Assembly: GCA_945881875.1 (NCBI GenBank)
Contig: CAMCVH010000001.1
Location: 248,001-312,000, forward strand
DNA: 64,000 nt
Reading direction: 5' to 3'
Source: Polynucleobacter meluiroseus
GTDB taxonomy: Bacteria; Pseudomonadota; Gammaproteobacteria; Burkholderiales; Burkholderiaceae
The position numbers were made by a program, and so were the translations under genes. Of this stretch, positions 32,894 to 42,726 are shown piece after piece. Within the stretch, counting starts at the first letter, position 1. Each line of letters starts with the position of its first letter. The notes beneath the pieces are model-generated. The model worked only from the letters and a program-made list of their open reading frames with translations, was not told the origin of the DNA and did no database searches.

Positions 32894-34501
32894 GTGCACG
32901 ATAAGATTTTAATTTTGGATTTTGGGTCACAAGTGACCCAGCTCATTGCTAGACGTGTGAGAGATGCACGCGTTTATTCAGAAATTCATCCCTATGATGT
33001 TGATGCTAGTTTGATTGAGAAGCTTGTCAAAGAGGGTGGTTGTAAAGGTATCATTCTATCTGGCGGTCCTAGCTCTGTGACCGATGGCGACACGCCAAGA
33101 GCTCCTGATATTGTTTTTAAATTAGATGTTCCTGTCTTAGGCATTTGTTACGGTATGCAAACGATGGCTGCGCAGTTGGGTGGGCAAGTTGCAACAGCTG
33201 AATCTTTAGGTAAGTCACGTGAGTTTGGTTACGCTGAAGTTCGTGCACGTGGCCACACCAAGTTATTTGAAAATATTCAAGACTTTGTAACACCAGAGGG
33301 TCATGGCATTCTGAAAGTGTGGATGAGTCATGGTGATTCAGTGACCGTGATGCCGGCAGGCTTCAAGTTAATGGCCTCTACCGACTCATGTCCGATTGCT
33401 GGTATGGCCGATGAAGATCGACATTTTTATGCAGTTCAATTTCACCCGGAAGTAACACATACAGTTTTAGGTACTGCCATCCTTGAGCGTTTTGTTCATG
33501 AGATCTGTGCGTGTGGCACGGATTGGGTGATGGGTGACTACATCGCTGAAGCAGTTGCCTCGATTCGCCAGCAGGTAGGTACTGATGAAGTGATATTAGG
33601 TTTGTCTGGTGGTGTTGATTCCAGTGTTGCTGCTGCTCTGATCCATAAAGCGATTGGCAAGCAATTAACTTGTGTTTTTGTTGACCATGGTTTGCTTCGT
33701 TTCGACGAAGGTAAGATGGTGATGGAAATGTTTGGCAAGAACTTGGGCGTGAAAGTCATTCATGTTGATGCGACAACTGAATTCATGGGTGCTTTGACAG
33801 GTGTTTCAGATCCAGAAGCCAAACGTAAAATTATTGGTAAAGAATTTGTTGAAGTATTCCAGCGCGAGTCTGCCAAGATTGAAAATGCCAAATGGCTAGC
33901 CCAAGGTACTATTTATCCTGACGTGATTGAGTCTGCTGGCAAAGGTAAAAAGGGCGCTCATACGATCAAGAGCCACCACAACGTCGGTGGTCTTCCTGAT
34001 GATATGAAGCTTAAGCTGCTAGAACCTCTGCGCGAGTTGTTCAAAGATGAAGTTCGTGCATTGGGTGTTGAGTTAGGTTTACCTCATGAGATGGTGTATC
34101 GCCATCCGTTCCCGGGTCCAGGTCTTGGTGTCCGCATTTTGGGTGAAGTGAAAAAAGACTTTGCTGACTTACTGCGTCGTGCAGATGCTATCTTCATTGA
34201 AGAGTTGCGTTCAACAATTGATGCGCCAACGGGCAAGTCTTGGTATGAGTTAACCAGTCAGGCTTTCGCAGTATTCCTCCCAGTAAAGTCGGTGGGGGTG
34301 ATGGGTGATGGTCGAACTTATGAATACGTTGTTGCTTTGCGAGCTGTTCAAACGCAAGACTTCATGACGGCTCACTGGGCTCATTTGCCTCATGAGTTAC
34401 TAGGCAGAGTGTCAAATCGAATCATCAATGAAGTTCGTGGCATCAACAGAGTTGTTTACGATATCAGTGGCAAGCCACCTGCAACCATTGAGTGGGAGTA
34501 G
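32894..34501 (+). CDS. guaA: GMP synthase (glutamine-hydrolysing), 3' end used as integration site
   Basis: Aminates XMP to GMP. The N-terminal class I glutamine amidotransferase domain shows the nucleophile elbow GICYGMQTM and HPEVTHT. The ATP-pyrophosphatase domain has the P-loop [15 protein letters not shown], and the C-terminal dimerisation domain ends [10 protein letters not shown]. Translation starts at GTG. The last codons (ATT GAG TGG GAG TAG) form the left copy of a 14-bp repeat found again at 40783-40796, so a mobile island has integrated here and restored the C-terminus. In the ancestral arrangement the stop would be TAA. Confidence 0.98.
34487..34500 (+). repeat. Left attachment core (attL), inside guaA
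   Basis: ATTGAGTGGGAGTA spans the last four sense codons of guaA and the first two bases of its TAG stop. It is identical to 40783-40796. Confidence 0.9.
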
Positions 34502-34512
34502 AAACTCTAACG

Positions 34513-34582
34513 TAAGTTGTTGATTTATATAAGTTTTGTAGTTACACAAAACAGACACACGCCCAACTAAGTTGTTGATTTA
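34513..34582 (+). repeat. 15-bp direct repeat pair at the left end of the island
   Basis: TAAGTTGTTGATTTA occurs at 34513-34527 and 34568-34582, exactly 55 bp apart. Together with GTTACAC motifs nearby these may be arm-type binding sites for the integrase. Confidence 0.45.
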
Positions 34583-34590
34583 GTTGGGCG
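34560..34590 (+). terminator. Perfect hairpin between guaA and the integrase gene
   Basis: CGCCCAACTAA and TTAGTTGGGCG form an 11-bp perfect stem with a 9-nt loop, 58 nt after the guaA stop. No U tract follows, so this may be a rho-independent-like brake on guaA read-through or part of the attachment region; it is not a canonical terminator. Confidence 0.4.
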
Positions 34591-34661
34591 TTGGCATTAA
34601 AGTTACACGTAAAGCTACACAACGCTGTAGCCGTTCAAAAACGTAGTCACCCAAAGCACAT

Positions 34662-35951
34662 ATGCCGCTAAAAAAACAAACTTTTACTGCTGACGAAATA
34701 GAAATATACGACGAAGCTGTTGTGTATAAGCGCGGCGAGTATTGGCAAATGCGTATGTGGTTGGGTAAGGAAAAGAAATACGCACGTTTTAGCTTACGCA
34801 CACGCAACAGAGATACAGCAATAGACAAAGCAAAAAAATACTATCACGAACTAATGGCACAGCAGTTAGCAGGTAAAACTTATTTTTCCAAAACAACAAA
34901 GCAAGGTGTTGAAGAATATTTGAAGCAACGTGCGCTTGACGTAGAAGCTGAACTAATAGTTAAAGGGCGATATGGAACGATTAAAACGCACTTAGAGCAT
35001 TGGCTTGATTTTATTGGACGAGATACAAAGCTAAAAGAACTTGAACGCACTGATTGCGAAAACTATCTACATTCGCGCACTAAAACAAAAAAGAAAATCA
35101 ACGTAAGTCAAACAACGGTAGCAAATGAACAAAGCACTATCAACGCTATGCTTAGTTGGTTGTATAGACGAAATGAAACATACATTGAAGCATTTGATTT
35201 TAAGCCGCTAAAACGTATTGATAGAGGTGACGAAGCATTACGGCGCAGCACATTTACTGACGAAGAGGTTATCGTAATAAAACAAGAGCTTGAAAAATAT
35301 ATAACTGAAGCAAAGGGTAACGTTGATGAAGAAGGCAATATGAGCAAAGTAATAAATGGTTACTATTTGCTCATATCAATCATTACAGGCTTGCGACGAG
35401 GTGAACAGCTACAACTAAAGTGGAGCGATATTAAATGGCTTGAGAAAAACGTAAAAGGACAAGCTGAGGATGACACTTATAGTCTTGTAAAAATAACGGT
35501 GCGAGCTGAAACAACTAAGGTAAGAAAAACAAGGCACTTTGTCGTTAAAGATTGGGAATATTTTGACGAGTTGTTTAAGCTCTTACAGCCGCGCTACGTA
35601 AAGGCAAACAAAGAGAATAAAAAGATAAAAGCATTTGGCGATACATTCGTGTTTAGCGCAAATGGAATGTCAATGCTAACGCCTCGTGCTATTGGATATC
35701 ACTTTGACAAAATGGTTGAGTTGGCTGAAATAAAAGATACAGACACACGTGATTTAGTGCCATACAGCTTCCGTCATTACTTTATTACAGACAGAATAAA
35801 CAGAGGCGCAACGCCAACACAAGTTGCGGAAACGTGTGGCACAAGCACAGCGCAGATTGAAAAAACTTACTACCATACAAGCGAGGCGAAAATGATTACT
35901 AATGCGCTGCCGCAGTTTGAGTATAAGGGTGGCTTGCTTATTCCTAAGTAG
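34662..35951 (+). CDS. Tyrosine-type site-specific integrase of the guaA island
   Basis: Probably catalyses integration at and excision from the guaA 3' end. The 429-residue protein has an N-terminal DNA-binding part, a SAM-like core-binding domain (about residues 85-170) and a C-terminal catalytic domain. The catalytic Arg is in ITGLRRGEQLQLKWSDI. The second Arg and a His are in VPYSFRHYFIT, where Tyr takes the place of the usual first His of the HxxR box, as in several phage-type integrases. The nucleophile Tyr is in QIEKTYYHT. It lies directly beside attL and is transcribed away from guaA, the usual position for an island integrase. Confidence 0.93.
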   Translation: MPLKKQTFTADEIEIYDEAVVYKRGEYWQMRMWLGKEKKYARFSLRTRNRDTAIDKAKKYYHELMAQQLAGKTYFSKTTKQGVEEYLKQRALDVEAELIVKGRYGTIKTHLEHWLDFIGRDTKLKELERTDCENYLHSRTKTKKKINVSQTTVANEQSTINAMLSWLYRRNETYIEAFDFKPLKRIDRGDEALRRSTFTDEEVIVIKQELEKYITEAKGNVDEEGNMSKVINGYYLLISIITGLRRGEQLQLKWSDIKWLEKNVKGQAEDDTYSLVKITVRAETTKVRKTRHFVVKDWEYFDELFKLLQPRYVKANKENKKIKAFGDTFVFSANGMSMLTPRAIGYHFDKMVELAEIKDTDTRDLVPYSFRHYFITDRINRGATPTQVAETCGTSTAQIEKTYYHTSEAKMITNALPQFEYKGGLLIPK

Positions 35952-36000
35952 CCGTAACCATTTTAGCTATGCCTGTCGTCCGTTCAATCGTGTTTTTTAT

Positions 36001-36492
36001 TTACGCACGTTTGAACGCCGTAACACCCTTCTTTTGCGTCAATAAAGCATTTTTGGTTGGCAATGTTGGCACACGTTGAGACTGAGTGGGTTGTGCTAAC
36101 GCCGCGTCGTTGTCGTCAACGTCGCTTACTTGTTTAGCTACATTGGCAACTTTTACGTTGGGGGTGGCAGCTGTTGTTGGAGGGTATGGCACTTTTGCTT
36201 GTGGGTTGAGGTGAGGGTTGGCATTTAGCTGTGTGGGGGTGGCAGCTTTTTGTATGGGTGGCTGCTTTGGTTTAGTAGTTGGCATTGGCACTTTGGGTGG
36301 GGGTAGTGACACAGACATACTGCGCTTACTAATACGCTTAGTGCTGCGCTTAGCTTTCTTCTGCTGCTGTGCTGCTACTTTCTGTTTCGCTTGTTCGCGC
36401 TGCTGCGTTTGTATCGCAGTCCATACGCTGTCGTTTACAAGTTTCCAAAGCGCAAGTTGTGCTTCTGCGTCTGCTATTTCAAATATTCTCAT
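36001..36492 (-). CDS. Proline- and lysine-rich hypothetical protein of the island
   Basis: I do not recognise this 163-residue protein. The first 30 residues form a predicted helix (IFEIADAEAQLALWKLVNDSVWTAI). A basic stretch follows (KQKVAAQQQKKAKRSTKRISKRS), and then a long low-complexity Pro/Thr/Gln/Asn-rich tail without predicted order. An AGGA sequence lies 8 nt before the start codon, which supports this strand over the 107-residue plus-strand ORF that overlaps it. A TTGAACAGAAAA motif copy lies 31 nt upstream of the start. The basic tail could bind nucleic acid, but that is a guess. Confidence 0.6.
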   Translation of the reverse strand: MRIFEIADAEAQLALWKLVNDSVWTAIQTQQREQAKQKVAAQQQKKAKRSTKRISKRSMSVSLPPPKVPMPTTKPKQPPIQKAATPTQLNANPHLNPQAKVPYPPTTAATPNVKVANVAKQVSDVDDNDAALAQPTQSQRVPTLPTKNALLTQKKGVTAFKRA

Positions 36493-36571
36493 ACGTTATG
36501 TTCCTATGTTGCTAACGTATTTATTGAACAGAAAAAGTTAGTAGCGCAAAGAAGCACAAGCAGCAAAACAC

Positions 36572-37021
36572 TTATTTTGTAAAAGCAGAACGTAGCTTTG
36601 TGCTTGCTGCTTCCATTGCTGCGTCAAGTTCGCCTCCGTTTACTGCTGCGCTGATAGTTTCTAAAGTCGCAACAAGTTCTTTTGTTGAAGCAAGTTCAAC
36701 AGCAGTCTTGCCTTTTCCCAAATCCAATACACGTGCGCCATAACGCACGTTGACACACAGCTTGCCGTTGTCTGCGTTAAACGTCCAACTTTTGACACGC
36801 TTAGCAACAGCAACTTGTTTGCGTTCGCCTGTTTCTACGTCTGTAATGCTGCGTAGCTTTGTTGGCGCATATGTGCTGCCGTTTTGTGCTGCTTTGGCAA
36901 GTTCAATCTGTTCTGCTAAACGTTTTACAAGTTTTGTGCGGCGCTGAACAACAGCAGAAAGTTGTGTAGCTTTTTTAGCGGTAGTAAGTTTCAAGTTAGC
37001 AAGTGTCATAGCGTTTTCCAT
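36572..37021 (-). CDS. Conserved hypothetical protein of the island (DUF6641-like, from memory)
   Basis: A 149-residue protein from the ATG at 37021 (MENAMTLANLK); the ORF track extends it 30 codons through a Cys-rich stretch that is unlikely to be coding. A second ATG at 37009 is equally possible. It has a basic N-terminal helix (VVQRRTKLVKRLAEQIELAK), a short beta-rich middle (SWTFNADNGKLCVNVRYGARVLDLGKGKTAVEL) and a C-terminal helix ending ELDAAMEAASTKLRSAF. It resembles small proteins of Burkholderiales mobile elements that I recall as DUF6641, but I cannot verify this. It is divergent from the HUH gene, so the two may share a control region. Confidence 0.65.
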   Translation of the reverse strand: MENAMTLANLKLTTAKKATQLSAVVQRRTKLVKRLAEQIELAKAAQNGSTYAPTKLRSITDVETGERKQVAVAKRVKSWTFNADNGKLCVNVRYGARVLDLGKGKTAVELASTKELVATLETISAAVNGGELDAAMEAASTKLRSAFTK

Positions 37022-37180
37022 TCTGTTTAGGTTGCTGTTAGGTTGCGTTATTTGTGCTGTTTTTGACGCAGCGCAGCAATAACAATAAGCTCGCAAAGCG
37101 TTGTAGGACAAGGCTTTTGAGGCATATGAACATACTTGGACAAAATATTTAGCTTTTTCTGTTCAAAGCTAAATAAAGGT

Positions 37181-37732
37181 ATGAACAATGAACAGCAAAA
37201 CACGCACAAAAAAGCATACGTAGCAGCGCAAACAGACTATTTAGACAAGTTGGCACAGCATTGCGACTTCGCACTTACGCTACAAACAAACTTGCCAACT
37301 TACGGCATAAGCGCAGCAACTATGGAAAAGAGGTTGGACGCAACACGCAACTGCTTACACAAGTTCCGTATGCGTTTTAATCGTTTACTGACAGGTAACG
37401 GACACAGACGCAACAATGATTACTTGCCTATTTTTATTGCTGCGATTGAAGGCACGCAAAACACATACGACAAAAACAGAACGCTACACATACACATAGC
37501 ACTTGGTAACTTACCATCAGCAGCAACACAAGAAATATTAGAAGACGGCATTAGGCAAATATGGGCAGCAACAGACGTAGGCACAACAGACATAAAGTTG
37601 GACAGACTAACGAAAGGCACTGAACAGCGTTGGAACAACTACATAGGCAAAGAAGCACATTACAAAAACAACAGCGAAGTGATTGACTACAGCAATACAC
37701 AAGCGCCGAACAAAATATTGGCAACTATTTAA
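37181..37732 (+). CDS. Small single-domain HUH (Rep/relaxase-type) nuclease
   Basis: This 183-residue protein has three motifs in the order and spacing of rolling-circle Rep proteins: motif I CDFALTLQTN (about residue 28), motif II RTLHIHIALGN with the metal-binding His-x-His pair (about 107), and motif III WNNYIGKEAHY, where Y-I-G-K fits the single catalytic Tyr form YxxK. No helicase domain follows. Such enzymes nick one strand at a hairpin origin and stay bound to the 5' end. I place the start at the ATG at 37181 (MNNEQQNTHKK); the track start is a TTG 45 nt upstream. The assignment rests on motifs alone. Confidence 0.7.
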   Translation: MNNEQQNTHKKAYVAAQTDYLDKLAQHCDFALTLQTNLPTYGISAATMEKRLDATRNCLHKFRMRFNRLLTGNGHRRNNDYLPIFIAAIEGTQNTYDKNRTLHIHIALGNLPSAATQEILEDGIRQIWAATDVGTTDIKLDRLTKGTEQRWNNYIGKEAHYKNNSEVIDYSNTQAPNKILATI

Positions 37733-37753
37733 TAAACAAACTTAGGCATAGCA

Positions 37754-37785
37754 GCTTGTCGTTTGACGCAGCGTTGACGACAAGC
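37754..37785 (+). repeat. 9-bp perfect inverted repeat just downstream of the HUH gene
   Basis: GCTTGTCGT and ACGACAAGC flank a 14-nt loop containing TTGACGCAGCG, 21 nt after the HUH stop codon. There is no U tract, which argues against a simple terminator. The position next to the gene of a hairpin-nicking enzyme suggests an origin. Confidence 0.5.
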
Positions 37786-38383
37786 AAAACGGATTGAACA
37801 ACTTGGAAGGACATTGGCTGACACTGAATGAAGTGTTAGTAGTCTTACTATTGTCTAAACACTTTGAAGCAATCAAAACACACACAGAAGAATAAAGACA
37901 CACAAAAGAACGACACTGAAACACAACGAAGCACACATACTGACGGTAACGTGATTTATAGGCAAAGTATGTTTGTTATACAAAGCAGCAAACGTAGGTA
38001 GGGGTGTAAAAATCACCAACCCAAAAGGAAATGGGTATGTGCTGAAAATAGCAGCGCAAAAAAATAAAGATAGCAAACTGAAAAATGGGCAACACGCTGA
38101 CACAGCTACAAACGCTGCGTTAGCGTGTTTTAGCTTCTACAAGCGTTTAACAAGCACAAGTGAATAGCAACGCAGCAAACGAAGTTGCTAAGTAGCTTGT
38201 AGGGCTTGTATGCGTGTTTTTAAGCGCATTGCTACGTGTGGCTTATTGACTACGAAATAACAGCGCAACGCACAAGTAGCAGCTAAATATGAATGAACAG
38301 AAAATACACAAAATATGTTCAAACAAAAAATCTTCTTCAAATTCAACGTGGTTTTGGATGGCAATTAAGGGTAGGAATTATTT

Positions 38384-38399
38384 TGAACAGAAAATACAC
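38384..38399 (+). repeat. Copies of the TTGAACAGAAAA motif in control regions of the island
   Basis: TGAACAGAAAATACAC occurs at about 38293-38308 and 38384-38399. A related TTGAACAGAAAAAG lies at about 36524-36537, and its reverse complement at 37153-37166, inside the palindrome-like AGCTTTTTCTGTTCAAAGCT. Each copy lies roughly 15-150 bp upstream of an island gene (the 163-residue protein, HUH and recombinase), which fits an operator or iteron. Confidence 0.5.
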
Positions 38400-38439
38400 T
38401 ATACGTAACAAAACAGCACGAAAGCAAGAGGGTTACGTA

Positions 38440-39006
38440 ATGACACAAGCGGCGACACTGACACAGCAACAATTACAGCGTGTATTGGATTATTTGCGCA
38501 CACGCAGACACTACAAGCGCAATAGAGCAATTATTTTGCTTACGCACTACGCAATGCTGAGAATTGGCGAAGTTGCGGCGCTACGTTATTGCGACGTAGT
38601 TGGCGAAGACGGCGAAATACGTGCTGAAACAACGCTAAGTGCGGCGCAAACTAAGGGCAACAAAGCGCGGACAATATGGTTTGCTGAAAAAGCACGTGTT
38701 GAATTGGCGGCGTATATAGCAACGCATAAACCCAAAACTCCAACGCAACCACTGTTTTACACGCAACGCAGTGACGGCTTTACAGCAAACACGCTGACGC
38801 ACATTGTGAACGGCATTTACAAAAACGCGGGAATTAGTGGCGCAACGTCACACAGTGGTAGACGCACTGGACTTACGAATTTAAGTGAACGCGGAGTGGG
38901 CGTGCGAACACTTATGGCAATTGCGGGGCACGCAAATATGTCAACTACACAGCGTTACATTGATATGCGTCCAAGCGTTATACGTGCGGCTGTGGAGTTG
39001 GTTTAA
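38440..39006 (+). CDS. Catalytic-domain-only tyrosine recombinase
   Basis: A 188-residue protein that is almost only the catalytic domain, as in the FimB/FimE invertase type. The catalytic set is complete: Arg in AMLRIGEVAALRY, Lys in AAQTKGNKARTIW, His-x-x-Arg in TSHSGRRTGL, His in AIAGHANMSTTQ and the nucleophile Tyr in QRYIDMRPS. I start at the ATG at 38440 (MTQAATLTQQQ) because GAGGG lies upstream; the track start is 49 codons earlier in a repeat-bearing leader. It meets the cargo gene tail to tail with 6 nt between them. It may resolve element dimers or invert DNA; the substrate is unknown. Confidence 0.85.
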   Translation: MTQAATLTQQQLQRVLDYLRTRRHYKRNRAIILLTHYAMLRIGEVAALRYCDVVGEDGEIRAETTLSAAQTKGNKARTIWFAEKARVELAAYIATHKPKTPTQPLFYTQRSDGFTANTLTHIVNGIYKNAGISGATSHSGRRTGLTNLSERGVGVRTLMAIAGHANMSTTQRYIDMRPSVIRAAVELV

Positions 39007-39012
39007 TAAAAA

Positions 39013-40510
<1,498 letters not shown>

Positions 40511-40673
40511 AGCTTGTCCAATTTAGTTGTTTAACTTAGAGGTAATTTTACTTGTCACAGCTGTCCGCGCATAGCAAAATTAGGAGTGTTATGGCATTCA
40601 CTTTAGCTTGTATAAGTTACGCCACACGACGTGTAACAGCTAAACGTGTAGACTGTTGAAATTGAAAAGACAT

Positions 40674-40703
40674 TTGACTACAGTAAACGCAGTAAACTAC
40701 AAT
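40674..40703 (+). promoter_or_regulatory. Outward sigma70-like promoter at the right end of the island
   Basis: TTGACT (40674-40679) and TACAAT (40698-40703) are 18 bp apart and point out of the island, about 115 nt before the radical SAM start codon. It may replace the transcription these genes lost when the insertion separated them from guaBA. Confidence 0.55.
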
Positions 40704-40782
40704 AAAACTAACACAAAACTTACACATTACAATTGAAATCACGCAAAGTATTGATAATAAACACTATTTTATCAACGTTACT

Positions 40783-40796
40783 ATTGAGTGGGAGTA
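40783..40796 (+). repeat. Right attachment core (attR)
   Basis: Second copy of ATTGAGTGGGAGTA, followed by A instead of G. Joining the guaA body to this copy would recreate guaA with a TAA stop and place the radical SAM gene 27 nt downstream. Confidence 0.9.
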
Positions 40797-40824: not shown

Positions 40825-42726
40825 ATGAGGATACTCAGTCTCATCCCGCCGATGACTCAGTTAAATACGCCGTATCCATCAACGGCTTACTTAACCGGAT
40901 TTCTTCGTTCTAGAGGGATTGACGCTGTTCAAGATGACTTAGCCTTATCTCTTGTCCTAAGCTTCTTTACCCCTGAAGGTCTTTCTGAAATCCATACCAA
41001 AGTACTAGAAGTTCCAGAGGAGTATCGTAGCGCTACGCTTAACTATTTCTTAGATTACTTCGAAGATTACAGGGCTACGATTGCGCACACCATTCGTTAC
41101 TTGCAGGGCAAGGATAAAACACTGAGCCATCGGATTAATAGCCGTGGCTTTTTACCAGAGGGTCCTCGTTTTGCTGTTTTGGAAACTTATGGTAATGATG
41201 AGGTAGAAGATCCATTAGCTTGGGCCTTTGGTGCTTTAGGTTCTGACGATAAAGCCCGACATCTAGCAACTCTTTATTTGAATGATTTATCCGACGTTCT
41301 TCGTGATGCTGTTGATGATCGTTTTGAATTTGTTCGCTATGCGGAGTCTTTAGCAGGGAGCCAAGCATCTTTTGATCCATTGGCTGATGCTCTTGCGGCT
41401 AAGCCTACCTTGATGGATGAGCATCTCCGCCAACTGACTTTAGCAACCGTTACTAAGCATCAACCTAACTTAGTTCTTTTATCAGTGCCATTCCCAGGAG
41501 CTGTCTATGCTGCTTTAAGGATTGCACAGACTATCAAGTCATTAGATCCTTCGATCAAAATTGGTTTAGGTGGTGGTTTCGTTAATACAGAACTGCGTGA
41601 GTTAAGTGACCCAAGAGTATTTGATTTTGTTGATTATGTAACGCTTGATTCTGGTGAGGCGCCATTGTTGGCTTTACTAGACCATCTGTGCGGTAAGAGA
41701 TTCTCTAGTAGATTAATAAGAACATTTATTAGAAATACTAAAGGTGTTGTTGAGTACATCAATTGGCCTGAGCCAGATGTGCCATTTGAAGAGGTAGGTA
41801 CTGCAACTTGGGATGGTCTACCTTTAGATTCTTATTTGTCATTACTTGATATGTTGAATCCAATGCATCGCTTATGGAGTGATGGTCGTTGGAATAAGTT
41901 AACAGTTGCCCATGGTTGCTACTGGAAGAAATGTAGCTTCTGTGATGTGAGTTTGGACTATATCTCTCGTTATGAGACTGCATCAGCAAGCTTGTTAGTA
42001 GATCGTATCGAGCAAATTATTGCTGAGACAGGACAGACTGGCTTTCATTTTGTGGATGAAGCGGCACCACCAAAAATACTTAAAGCACTAGCAGAAGAAT
42101 TGATTCGTCGAGAAGTAACGATTTCTTGGTGGGGTAATATTCGTTTTGAAAAAACATTTACACCAGAGTTAGCGGAGTTACTAGCGCAAAGCGGTTGTAT
42201 TGCTATGTCAGGTGGCTTGGAAGTGGCATCAGATCGTTTGCTAAATTTAATGCAAAAGGGTGTTTCTGTTGTGCAAGTAGCGCATGTTACTAAGAGCTTC
42301 TCAGATGTCGGTATCTTGGTTCATGCCTATTTAATGTACGGTTTTCCAACCCAAACAGTTCAAGAAACAGTCGATTCCTTAGAATATGTACGACAGTTAT
42401 TTGAAAATGGCTGCATACAAAGTGGTTTCTTTCACAGGTTCACATGCACCGTTCACTCACCTGTCGGCAAAGACCCTAAAGCTTATGGAATTGAATTAGT
42501 GCCATTGCCGCCAGTTACATTTGCTAAAAATGATATTGCTTTCATCGACCCGACGGGAACAGATCACGATAGTTTGGGGCATGGTCTTAAAAAGGCGATC
42601 TATAACTACATGCATGGTATTGCCTTAGACCAAGATGTGAAAACTTGGTTTGATCTGCCGGGGCTAAAAACCCCAAAAACGACGATTTCTCGTCAAGCCA
42701 TTGCTAAAGCACTGAAGTTACAATGA
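40825..42726 (+). CDS. B12-binding-fold radical SAM protein
   Basis: A 633-residue protein. The N-terminal half resembles a cobalamin-binding Rossmann domain (LVLLSVPFPGAVYAALRIAQTIKSLDPSIKIGLGGGFVN), although I see no DxHxxG cobalt-ligand motif. The radical SAM core has the cluster motif GCYWKKCSFCD (Cx3Cx2C) and later GGLEVASDRLLNLMQKGV. Function is unknown; it sits directly before queE and queD (29 nt). The start (MRILSLIPP) has no clear ribosome binding site and lies just after the hairpin. Without the island it would follow guaA closely. Confidence 0.85.
   Translation: MRILSLIPPMTQLNTPYPSTAYLTGFLRSRGIDAVQDDLALSLVLSFFTPEGLSEIHTKVLEVPEEYRSATLNYFLDYFEDYRATIAHTIRYLQGKDKTLSHRINSRGFLPEGPRFAVLETYGNDEVEDPLAWAFGALGSDDKARHLATLYLNDLSDVLRDAVDDRFEFVRYAESLAGSQASFDPLADALAAKPTLMDEHLRQLTLATVTKHQPNLVLLSVPFPGAVYAALRIAQTIKSLDPSIKIGLGGGFVNTELRELSDPRVFDFVDYVTLDSGEAPLLALLDHLCGKRFSSRLIRTFIRNTKGVVEYINWPEPDVPFEEVGTATWDGLPLDSYLSLLDMLNPMHRLWSDGRWNKLTVAHGCYWKKCSFCDVSLDYISRYETASASLLVDRIEQIIAETGQTGFHFVDEAAPPKILKALAEELIRREVTISWWGNIRFEKTFTPELAELLAQSGCIAMSGGLEVASDRLLNLMQKGVSVVQVAHVTKSFSDVGILVHAYLMYGFPTQTVQETVDSLEYVRQLFENGCIQSGFFHRFTCTVHSPVGKDPKAYGIELVPLPPVTFAKNDIAFIDPTGTDHDSLGHGLKKAIYNYMHGIALDQDVKTWFDLPGLKTPKTTISRQAIAKALKLQ

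Follow-up and report, generated by a model that had tools for sequence, protein, structure and literature searches.

A stand-alone HUH protein as the putative rolling-circle replication initiator of a small integrative element in Polynucleobacter meluiroseus

Introduction

Integrated rolling-circle plasmids with HUH Reps, among them the pCRESS groups, carry an HUH Rep gene and att direct repeats, lack virus structural genes, and encode viral-like Reps with a helicase domain (PMC6668415). AICEs of Actinobacteria, e.g. pSAM2, combine a tyrosine integrase that inserts into tRNA 3′ ends with a rolling-circle Rep, and exchange modules (PMC3218068). For the archaeal virus SNJ2, an integrated element that excises, a conserved hairpin and a second inverted repeat downstream of rep are experimentally supported as the origin; its initiator, Rep-Arvir, has a Rep_trans-like fold (PMC13107129). 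Two tyrosine recombinases occur in the strand-biased circularizing integrative elements (SE) and in GInt, and SE are further marked by an intA-tfp-intB-srap operon at one end, inverted-repeat ends and no HUH gene (PMC10214605). MobK of pIGRK is a small tyrosine recombinase reduced to the catalytic domain, and the intergenic region upstream of it is notable (PMC8152469).

Here we analyzed a 64,000-nucleotide stretch of the P. meluiroseus genome (assembly GCA_945881875.1, contig CAMCVH010000001.1, positions 248,001 to 312,000; hereafter the window), which holds a short HUH gene in an integrated element with traits of each of these systems. The HUH Rep gene, att direct repeats and lack of virus structural genes are those of the pCRESS-type plasmids, whereas the Reps of those plasmids belong to other sequence groups and the window family is set apart by a single-domain Rep, frequent HxN, a second recombinase and DUF6641. 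As in AICEs, an integrase is found together with a putative rolling-circle Rep (assigned here by family and predicted fold), and family members sit at tRNA 3′ ends and exchange modules. The Rep family and the hosts differ, however, and an FtsK-like Tra transfer protein, an AICE trait, was not found among the Pfam-scanned genes of the window element. A hairpin and a further inverted repeat behind rep are shared with SNJ2, whose Rep is not of the HUH type. In contrast to SE and GInt, the window element has its recombinases at both ends of the core, direct-repeat ends and an HUH gene. Its small second recombinase resembles MobK in domain content and in the conserved non-coding DNA upstream. No description of this element type was found in the literature searched.

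Results

The element spans window positions 34484–40796 (~6.3 kb) and is inserted at the 3′ end of guaA. Its left border, attL (34484–34500, + strand), is formed by the last 17 nt of guaA (ACCATTGAGTGGGAGTA). This sequence recurs as a direct repeat with 16 of 17 positions matching at the right border, attR (40780–40796, +). A relative (L054) retains the empty site, with guaA joined directly to the gene that lies at 40825 in the window, which identifies 34501–40796 as an insertion. Repeats and empty site bear out the view of an initial annotation of this DNA that the HUH gene belongs to an integrated element.

At the left end lies a 429-aa tyrosine integrase (34662–35951, +; Pfam Phage_integrase 42.9 bits, cut-off 27.1; PHROG integrase). 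A homologue occupies the left end of most family elements, and the protein is likely the enzyme of excision and integration. Two genes on the reverse strand follow. One encodes a small Pro/Ala-rich protein of 163 aa (36001–36492, −) common to the window and its closest relative only; in other elements its slot holds an unrelated short gene. The other encodes a 148-aa DUF6641 protein (36572–37018, −; PF20346 49.4 bits, cut-off 27), is divergent from the HUH gene and adjoins it in 22 loci. A search for DUF6641 in wider genomes returned little. Toward the right end, a SAM-dependent methyltransferase (39013–40023, −; PF08241 40.5 bits) is a passenger gene, replaced by other genes in relatives.

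Just 5′ of the HUH start codon, a perfect 11-bp inverted repeat with an 8-nt loop was read from the sequence (TATTTAGCTTT / AAAGCTAAATA; 37146–37175, +), which may serve as an operator or be bound by Rep. At most loci of the family, a TAAATA element stands ahead of rep. The motif TGAACAGAAAA occurs in both orientations at 36524–36540, 37150–37166, 38294–38309 and 38384–38399, upstream of three element genes, and could possibly be the site of a shared regulator.

The HUH gene (37181–37732, +) encodes a stand-alone HUH endonuclease and putative rolling-circle replication initiator (Rep), as judged from motifs, alignment, predicted fold and the Pfam matches of relatives. The reading frame runs from an ATG at 37181 to a stop codon at 37730–37732 and gives 183 residues, the coordinates and length annotated initially; an alternative in-frame TTG at 37136 would extend the protein to 198 aa. 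By the motif definition of the HUH Rep superfamily (PMC6668415), motif I (UUTU) is present as FALTLQ (residues 30–35), motif II (His-U-His) as HIHIALGN (103–110) and motif III (YxxK), C-terminal to motif II, as YIGKE (154–158). The trio singled out in the initial annotation (FALTLQ, HIHIALGN, NYIGK) thus stands in the order of HUH Reps, and it is conserved among 22 family members. H103 and Y154 were kept in all 22 aligned homologues, and K157, E158 and E90 in 21 each, so the motifs are not chance occurrences. Conservation of the His-x-His and Tyr-x-x-Lys residues, on which the initial assignment leaned, accordingly held for the first histidine, the tyrosine and the lysine. It failed for the second histidine: residue 105, initially treated as defining, is His in 12 homologues and Asn in the remaining 10, nearly half of the family. 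Comparison with close relatives gave dN/dS values of 0.15–0.27, which indicate purifying selection on the gene.

Neither the HUH protein nor the scanned neighboring genes matched a helicase in Pfam or PHROG, consistent with the earlier remark that nothing helicase-like accompanies it. Searched alone, the window protein had no credible match in Pfam, PHROG, NCBIfam or PDB sequences; apparent PDB sequence matches fell on unrelated proteins or on generic RNA-recognition folds, and we dismissed them. A six-frame search recovered homologues in 23 of 200 related genomes, nearly all within the genus Polynucleobacter. Contig names in GTDB added Limnohabitans, Methylibium, Rubrivivax and others, some of them single-contig bins whose organism label is unsafe. 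No relative was found in plasmids or phages (tblastn) or in IMG/VR (pattern scans), so a free circular form did not come to light.

A second, distant HUH copy of the HxN type (27% identical) is present in the same genome on contig C6 (L046:8764–9306), accompanied by DUF6641, a small recombinase and a strong post-rep hairpin. At two other loci (L036 and L050) the family HUH gene stands in another context, with a different recombinase and no DUF6641, and at L036 a tandem AGTCCATAACTACGTCC repeat lies behind rep.

An AlphaFold2 model computed from the window protein and its GTDB relatives (pLDDT 83.7, pTM 0.80) contained five predicted strands (residues 28–39, 84–90, 101–109, 134–142 and 168–174), the third carrying the HxH motif, and placed Tyr154 at a helix end. 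This predicted layout is that of the five-stranded HUH Rep fold, in line with the single-domain HUH nuclease initially proposed. Foldseek comparison with viral models (BFVD) returned many replication proteins of small phages at a probability of ~1.00, the best matches including proteins named ORF2/G2P and Microvirus (Microviridae-type) replication initiators. Against solved PDB structures nothing fell below an E-value of 0.001. The best HUH-type matches there were weak, namely the REP-associated transposase 4er8 (E 0.058, probability 0.80) and a viral NS1 nuclease. The fold comparison suggested with the initial annotation therefore led to replication proteins among viral models and to weak matches among solved structures.

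Family assignment runs through the relatives. Four of them, 22–24% identical to the window protein, passed the cut-off (27.8 bits) of the phage Rep family PF23343 REP_ORF2-G2P with 27.9–30.5 bits, and three family members matched a PHROG 'replication initiation protein' (best E 4.5e-4). These scores and the fold matches link the family to PF23343. The window protein itself, however, had no match to it, and the window element is chromosomally integrated and free of phage genes. By motif and predicted fold, the window protein belongs to the HUH superfamily and is of the Rep type.

Most rep genes in the family were followed by a hairpin within ~130 nt 3′ of the stop codon; two members (L043, L091) lacked one. 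The best post-rep stems were stronger than those in random segments of the same loci, with a p-value that is only indicative because the loci are related. Covariation was counted clade by clade (HxN clade; window clade), since a global MAFFT alignment misplaced the 3′ arms of hairpins with different loop lengths. In the HxN clade the stem of the hairpin counts 12 pairs; 95.5% of cells are paired, and four pairs are changed on both sides. Covariation was 0.27 compared with 0.16 in shuffles, and sliding the partner reduced pairing to 25–44%. A covariance model of this hairpin found a single strong site in each element, immediately after rep, at 15 loci of the clade (training loci included). Across the window's genome it scored strongly only at the site of the second HUH copy, and it missed the window-clade site. 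The post-rep hairpin is likely to be the replication origin.

Two hairpins follow rep in the window, both kept in the window clade (for hairpin A in L026, L027, L095, L096 and L098). Hairpin A (GCTTGTCGTTTGACGCAGCGTTGACGACAAGC; 37754–37785, +) is a candidate Rep-binding or nick element. It folds as single-stranded DNA at −10.8 kcal/mol (z −2.4), its inner TTTGACG.AGCGTT is nearly invariant, and three outer-stem pairs were changed on both sides among six related loci. The hairpin pointed out initially is thus supported by folding and compensatory changes, within the HUH gene's own clade. Hairpin B (GCTGACACT-GAATGA-AGTGTTAGT; 37817–37840, +) is a candidate double-strand-origin hairpin. As single-stranded DNA it folds weakly on its own (z −0.9), and its equivalence to the post-rep hairpin of other clades rests on position and matching by eye, as the HxN model misses the window site. 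It is followed by a candidate nick region (ACTATTGTCTAAA; 37847–37859, +) resembling RCTwTGnyTAAA, a motif found after the post-rep hairpin in many family members; the window copy is a loose fit only. The strict form, CT[AT]TG..TAAA, was present behind the rep stop codon at 16 of the 40 loci, a number that includes several duplicates; the background is 0.07 per kb per strand. We rejected an intrinsic-terminator reading of hairpins A and B because neither is followed by a T-run. Rfam gave only sub-threshold matches on the element.

The right end of the conserved core is formed by a small tyrosine recombinase of 188 aa (38440–39006, +; Pfam Phage_integrase 98.9 bits). The domain spans the whole protein, leaving no arm- or core-binding domain, as is also the case in ordinary small recombinases. 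The family keeps R, HxxR, H and Y, and its nearest solved relatives are XerC, XerA and XerD. Upstream of the gene lies a conserved non-coding block (GGTAGGAA...AGAAAATACACTA; 38370–38402, +). Its elements AGGTAGGAA and AAGAAAACA were each present in 14 of 19 regions, and the block is possibly a recombination site, an oriT or a promoter. Probable roles of the enzyme are the resolution of multimers or the handling of passenger genes. Alternatively it may, like MobK (PMC8152469), act as a relaxase on the block upstream of its own gene.

About 15 loci showed the same order: a tyrosine integrase, a short gene and DUF6641 on the reverse strand, the HUH gene, variable genes, and the small tyrosine recombinase. 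They lie mostly at tRNA-Lys, tRNA-Met or tRNA-Phe genes, and several are bounded by 45–49-bp repeats of the 3′ ends of these tRNAs. Delimited elements were mostly 5.5–9.5 kb long, with one of 13.7 kb. Among the passengers between rep and the small recombinase, or beyond the latter, are a MOSC protein, a cation-efflux protein and a restriction-modification pair of type II. The element of 13.7 kb, the largest, has genes for a type II restriction enzyme and a cytosine methyltransferase paired at the right end (L045:309–2534), and another type II restriction enzyme/methyltransferase pair is present at L028. Two successive tRNA-Lys att repeats to the right of one element (L029:9839 and 11761) suggest a second inserted segment side by side with it.

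Sequence identity varied along the elements. Compared with two relatives it was mostly 93–97% over DUF6641 and rep, 87–95% in the post-rep DNA and 75–79% in the small recombinase, a drop that points to module exchange. In a Hydrogenophaga bin (L095) the core DNA was 91% identical, and the left integrase region and the right end differed. Of 131 sampled Polynucleobacter genomes, 69 had relatives of the small recombinase, frequently several in one genome. In a sample of these loci, many also had the integrase and DUF6641 and an unrelated short gene in the HUH slot, so that the HUH protein is one module in an exchangeable slot, present in a subset of elements. At three loci (L131, L132, L139) the slot between DUF6641 and the small recombinase held similar proteins of 150–195 aa (FGKGL..NGT..KYLVDF) with no database match, possibly alternative replication or maintenance proteins. 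At three others (L130, L134, L140) a different short protein of 100–130 aa had no convincing match. An Azospirillum plasmid has the same gene order beside tRNA-Phe. Its HUH-like protein is reduced (AVYLTF, LHFGG, YNTKE), and the likeness comes from motifs and position, the profile match being weak (E 0.02).

Discussion

The element is most probably an integrated rolling-circle replicon, a known kind of element, and involves no new mechanism. Taking protein family, motifs, predicted fold, borders, empty site, gene order, covarying hairpins and purifying selection together, we consider it probable that the HUH protein is the stand-alone Rep of a 6.3-kb capsid-less integrative element. We infer the following cycle from sequence. 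The left-end integrase would release the element as a circle from its site at the guaA 3′ end. Rep would then bind and nick one strand in the hairpin region behind its own gene (37754–37859), becoming attached via Tyr154 to the 5′ end of the nicked strand. The free 3′ end would be extended by host helicase and polymerase to give rolling-circle copies, and these could reintegrate.

The initial annotation, which recognized neither the recurrent element with its two tyrosine recombinases nor the post-rep hairpin shared by most of the family, had offered three roles for a protein of this size: replication initiator, mobilization relaxase or Y1-type transposase. The first is favored. A relaxase would share the superfamily and the mobile-element location, and small relaxases exist, yet the protein has its HUH motif before the tyrosine, against the permuted Tyr-before-HUH order of Mob relaxases (PMC6668415), and its relatives match a replication family; we regard this role as very improbable. 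Equally improbable is a Y1 or REP-associated transposase acting on hairpins. Its single tyrosine, the adjoining hairpin and 4er8 as the best HUH match in the PDB would fit such an enzyme, but the element ends in integrase att direct repeats at guaA or tRNA genes rather than in hairpins on either side of the HUH gene. The gene order with two recombinases is also fixed, and the modelled clade has a single strong hairpin site per element with none comparable elsewhere in the host genome.

Mobilization could instead fall to the other end of the core. The element would then be integrative and mobilizable, with the small recombinase as a MobK/TcpM/MpsA-like relaxase nicking the block upstream of its own gene and the HUH protein as its replication partner. 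Arm- and core-binding domains are missing from MobK, TcpM and MpsA, and mobK is immediately preceded by the MobK oriT (PMC8152469); the 188-aa recombinase likewise consists of the catalytic domain only and has a conserved non-coding block ahead of its gene. An N-terminal domain is missing from many ordinary recombinases too, however, the nearest solved relatives are Xer enzymes, and VirB4-type T4SS genes occurred in only 4 of 131 genomes of the genus. We judge this arrangement unlikely, though less so than the other rival readings. The resemblance of Rep to G2P and Microviridae initiators, and the 5.5–9.5 kb size of most members, would also suit a satellite that relies on an inovirus-like helper ssDNA phage for packaging, with Rep making the ssDNA. 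Zot was not found in the 131 genus genomes, nor Rep relatives in IMG/VR and phage records, and no morphogenesis gene was recognized, all of which leaves a satellite scarcely credible.

Beyond the rolling-circle replicon proposed for the window, the recurrence of its parts tentatively suggests, at somewhat less than even probability, an unnamed and abundant class of capsid-less integrative elements in freshwater Burkholderiales, with a relative in Azospirillum. Such a class would be built from an integrase, DUF6641 and a small catalytic-only tyrosine recombinase around an exchangeable slot, filled in one branch by an HUH Rep with a co-inherited hairpin origin. The single-domain Rep family would tolerate Asn in place of the second metal-binding His, and the second recombinase would have a job beyond integration, as relaxase, resolvase or in cargo exchange.

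The rep gene and its hairpin are small enough for a direct replicon test, and the natural His-to-Asn change in nearly half of the family offers a way to test whether the second metal ligand is required. Polynucleobacter is widespread in lakes, and few of its mobile elements are described in the literature searched. A compact element of this kind, with its small recombinase in more than half of the genomes sampled and with restriction-modification, metal-efflux and other genes as passengers, would be a main route of gene gain in the genus.
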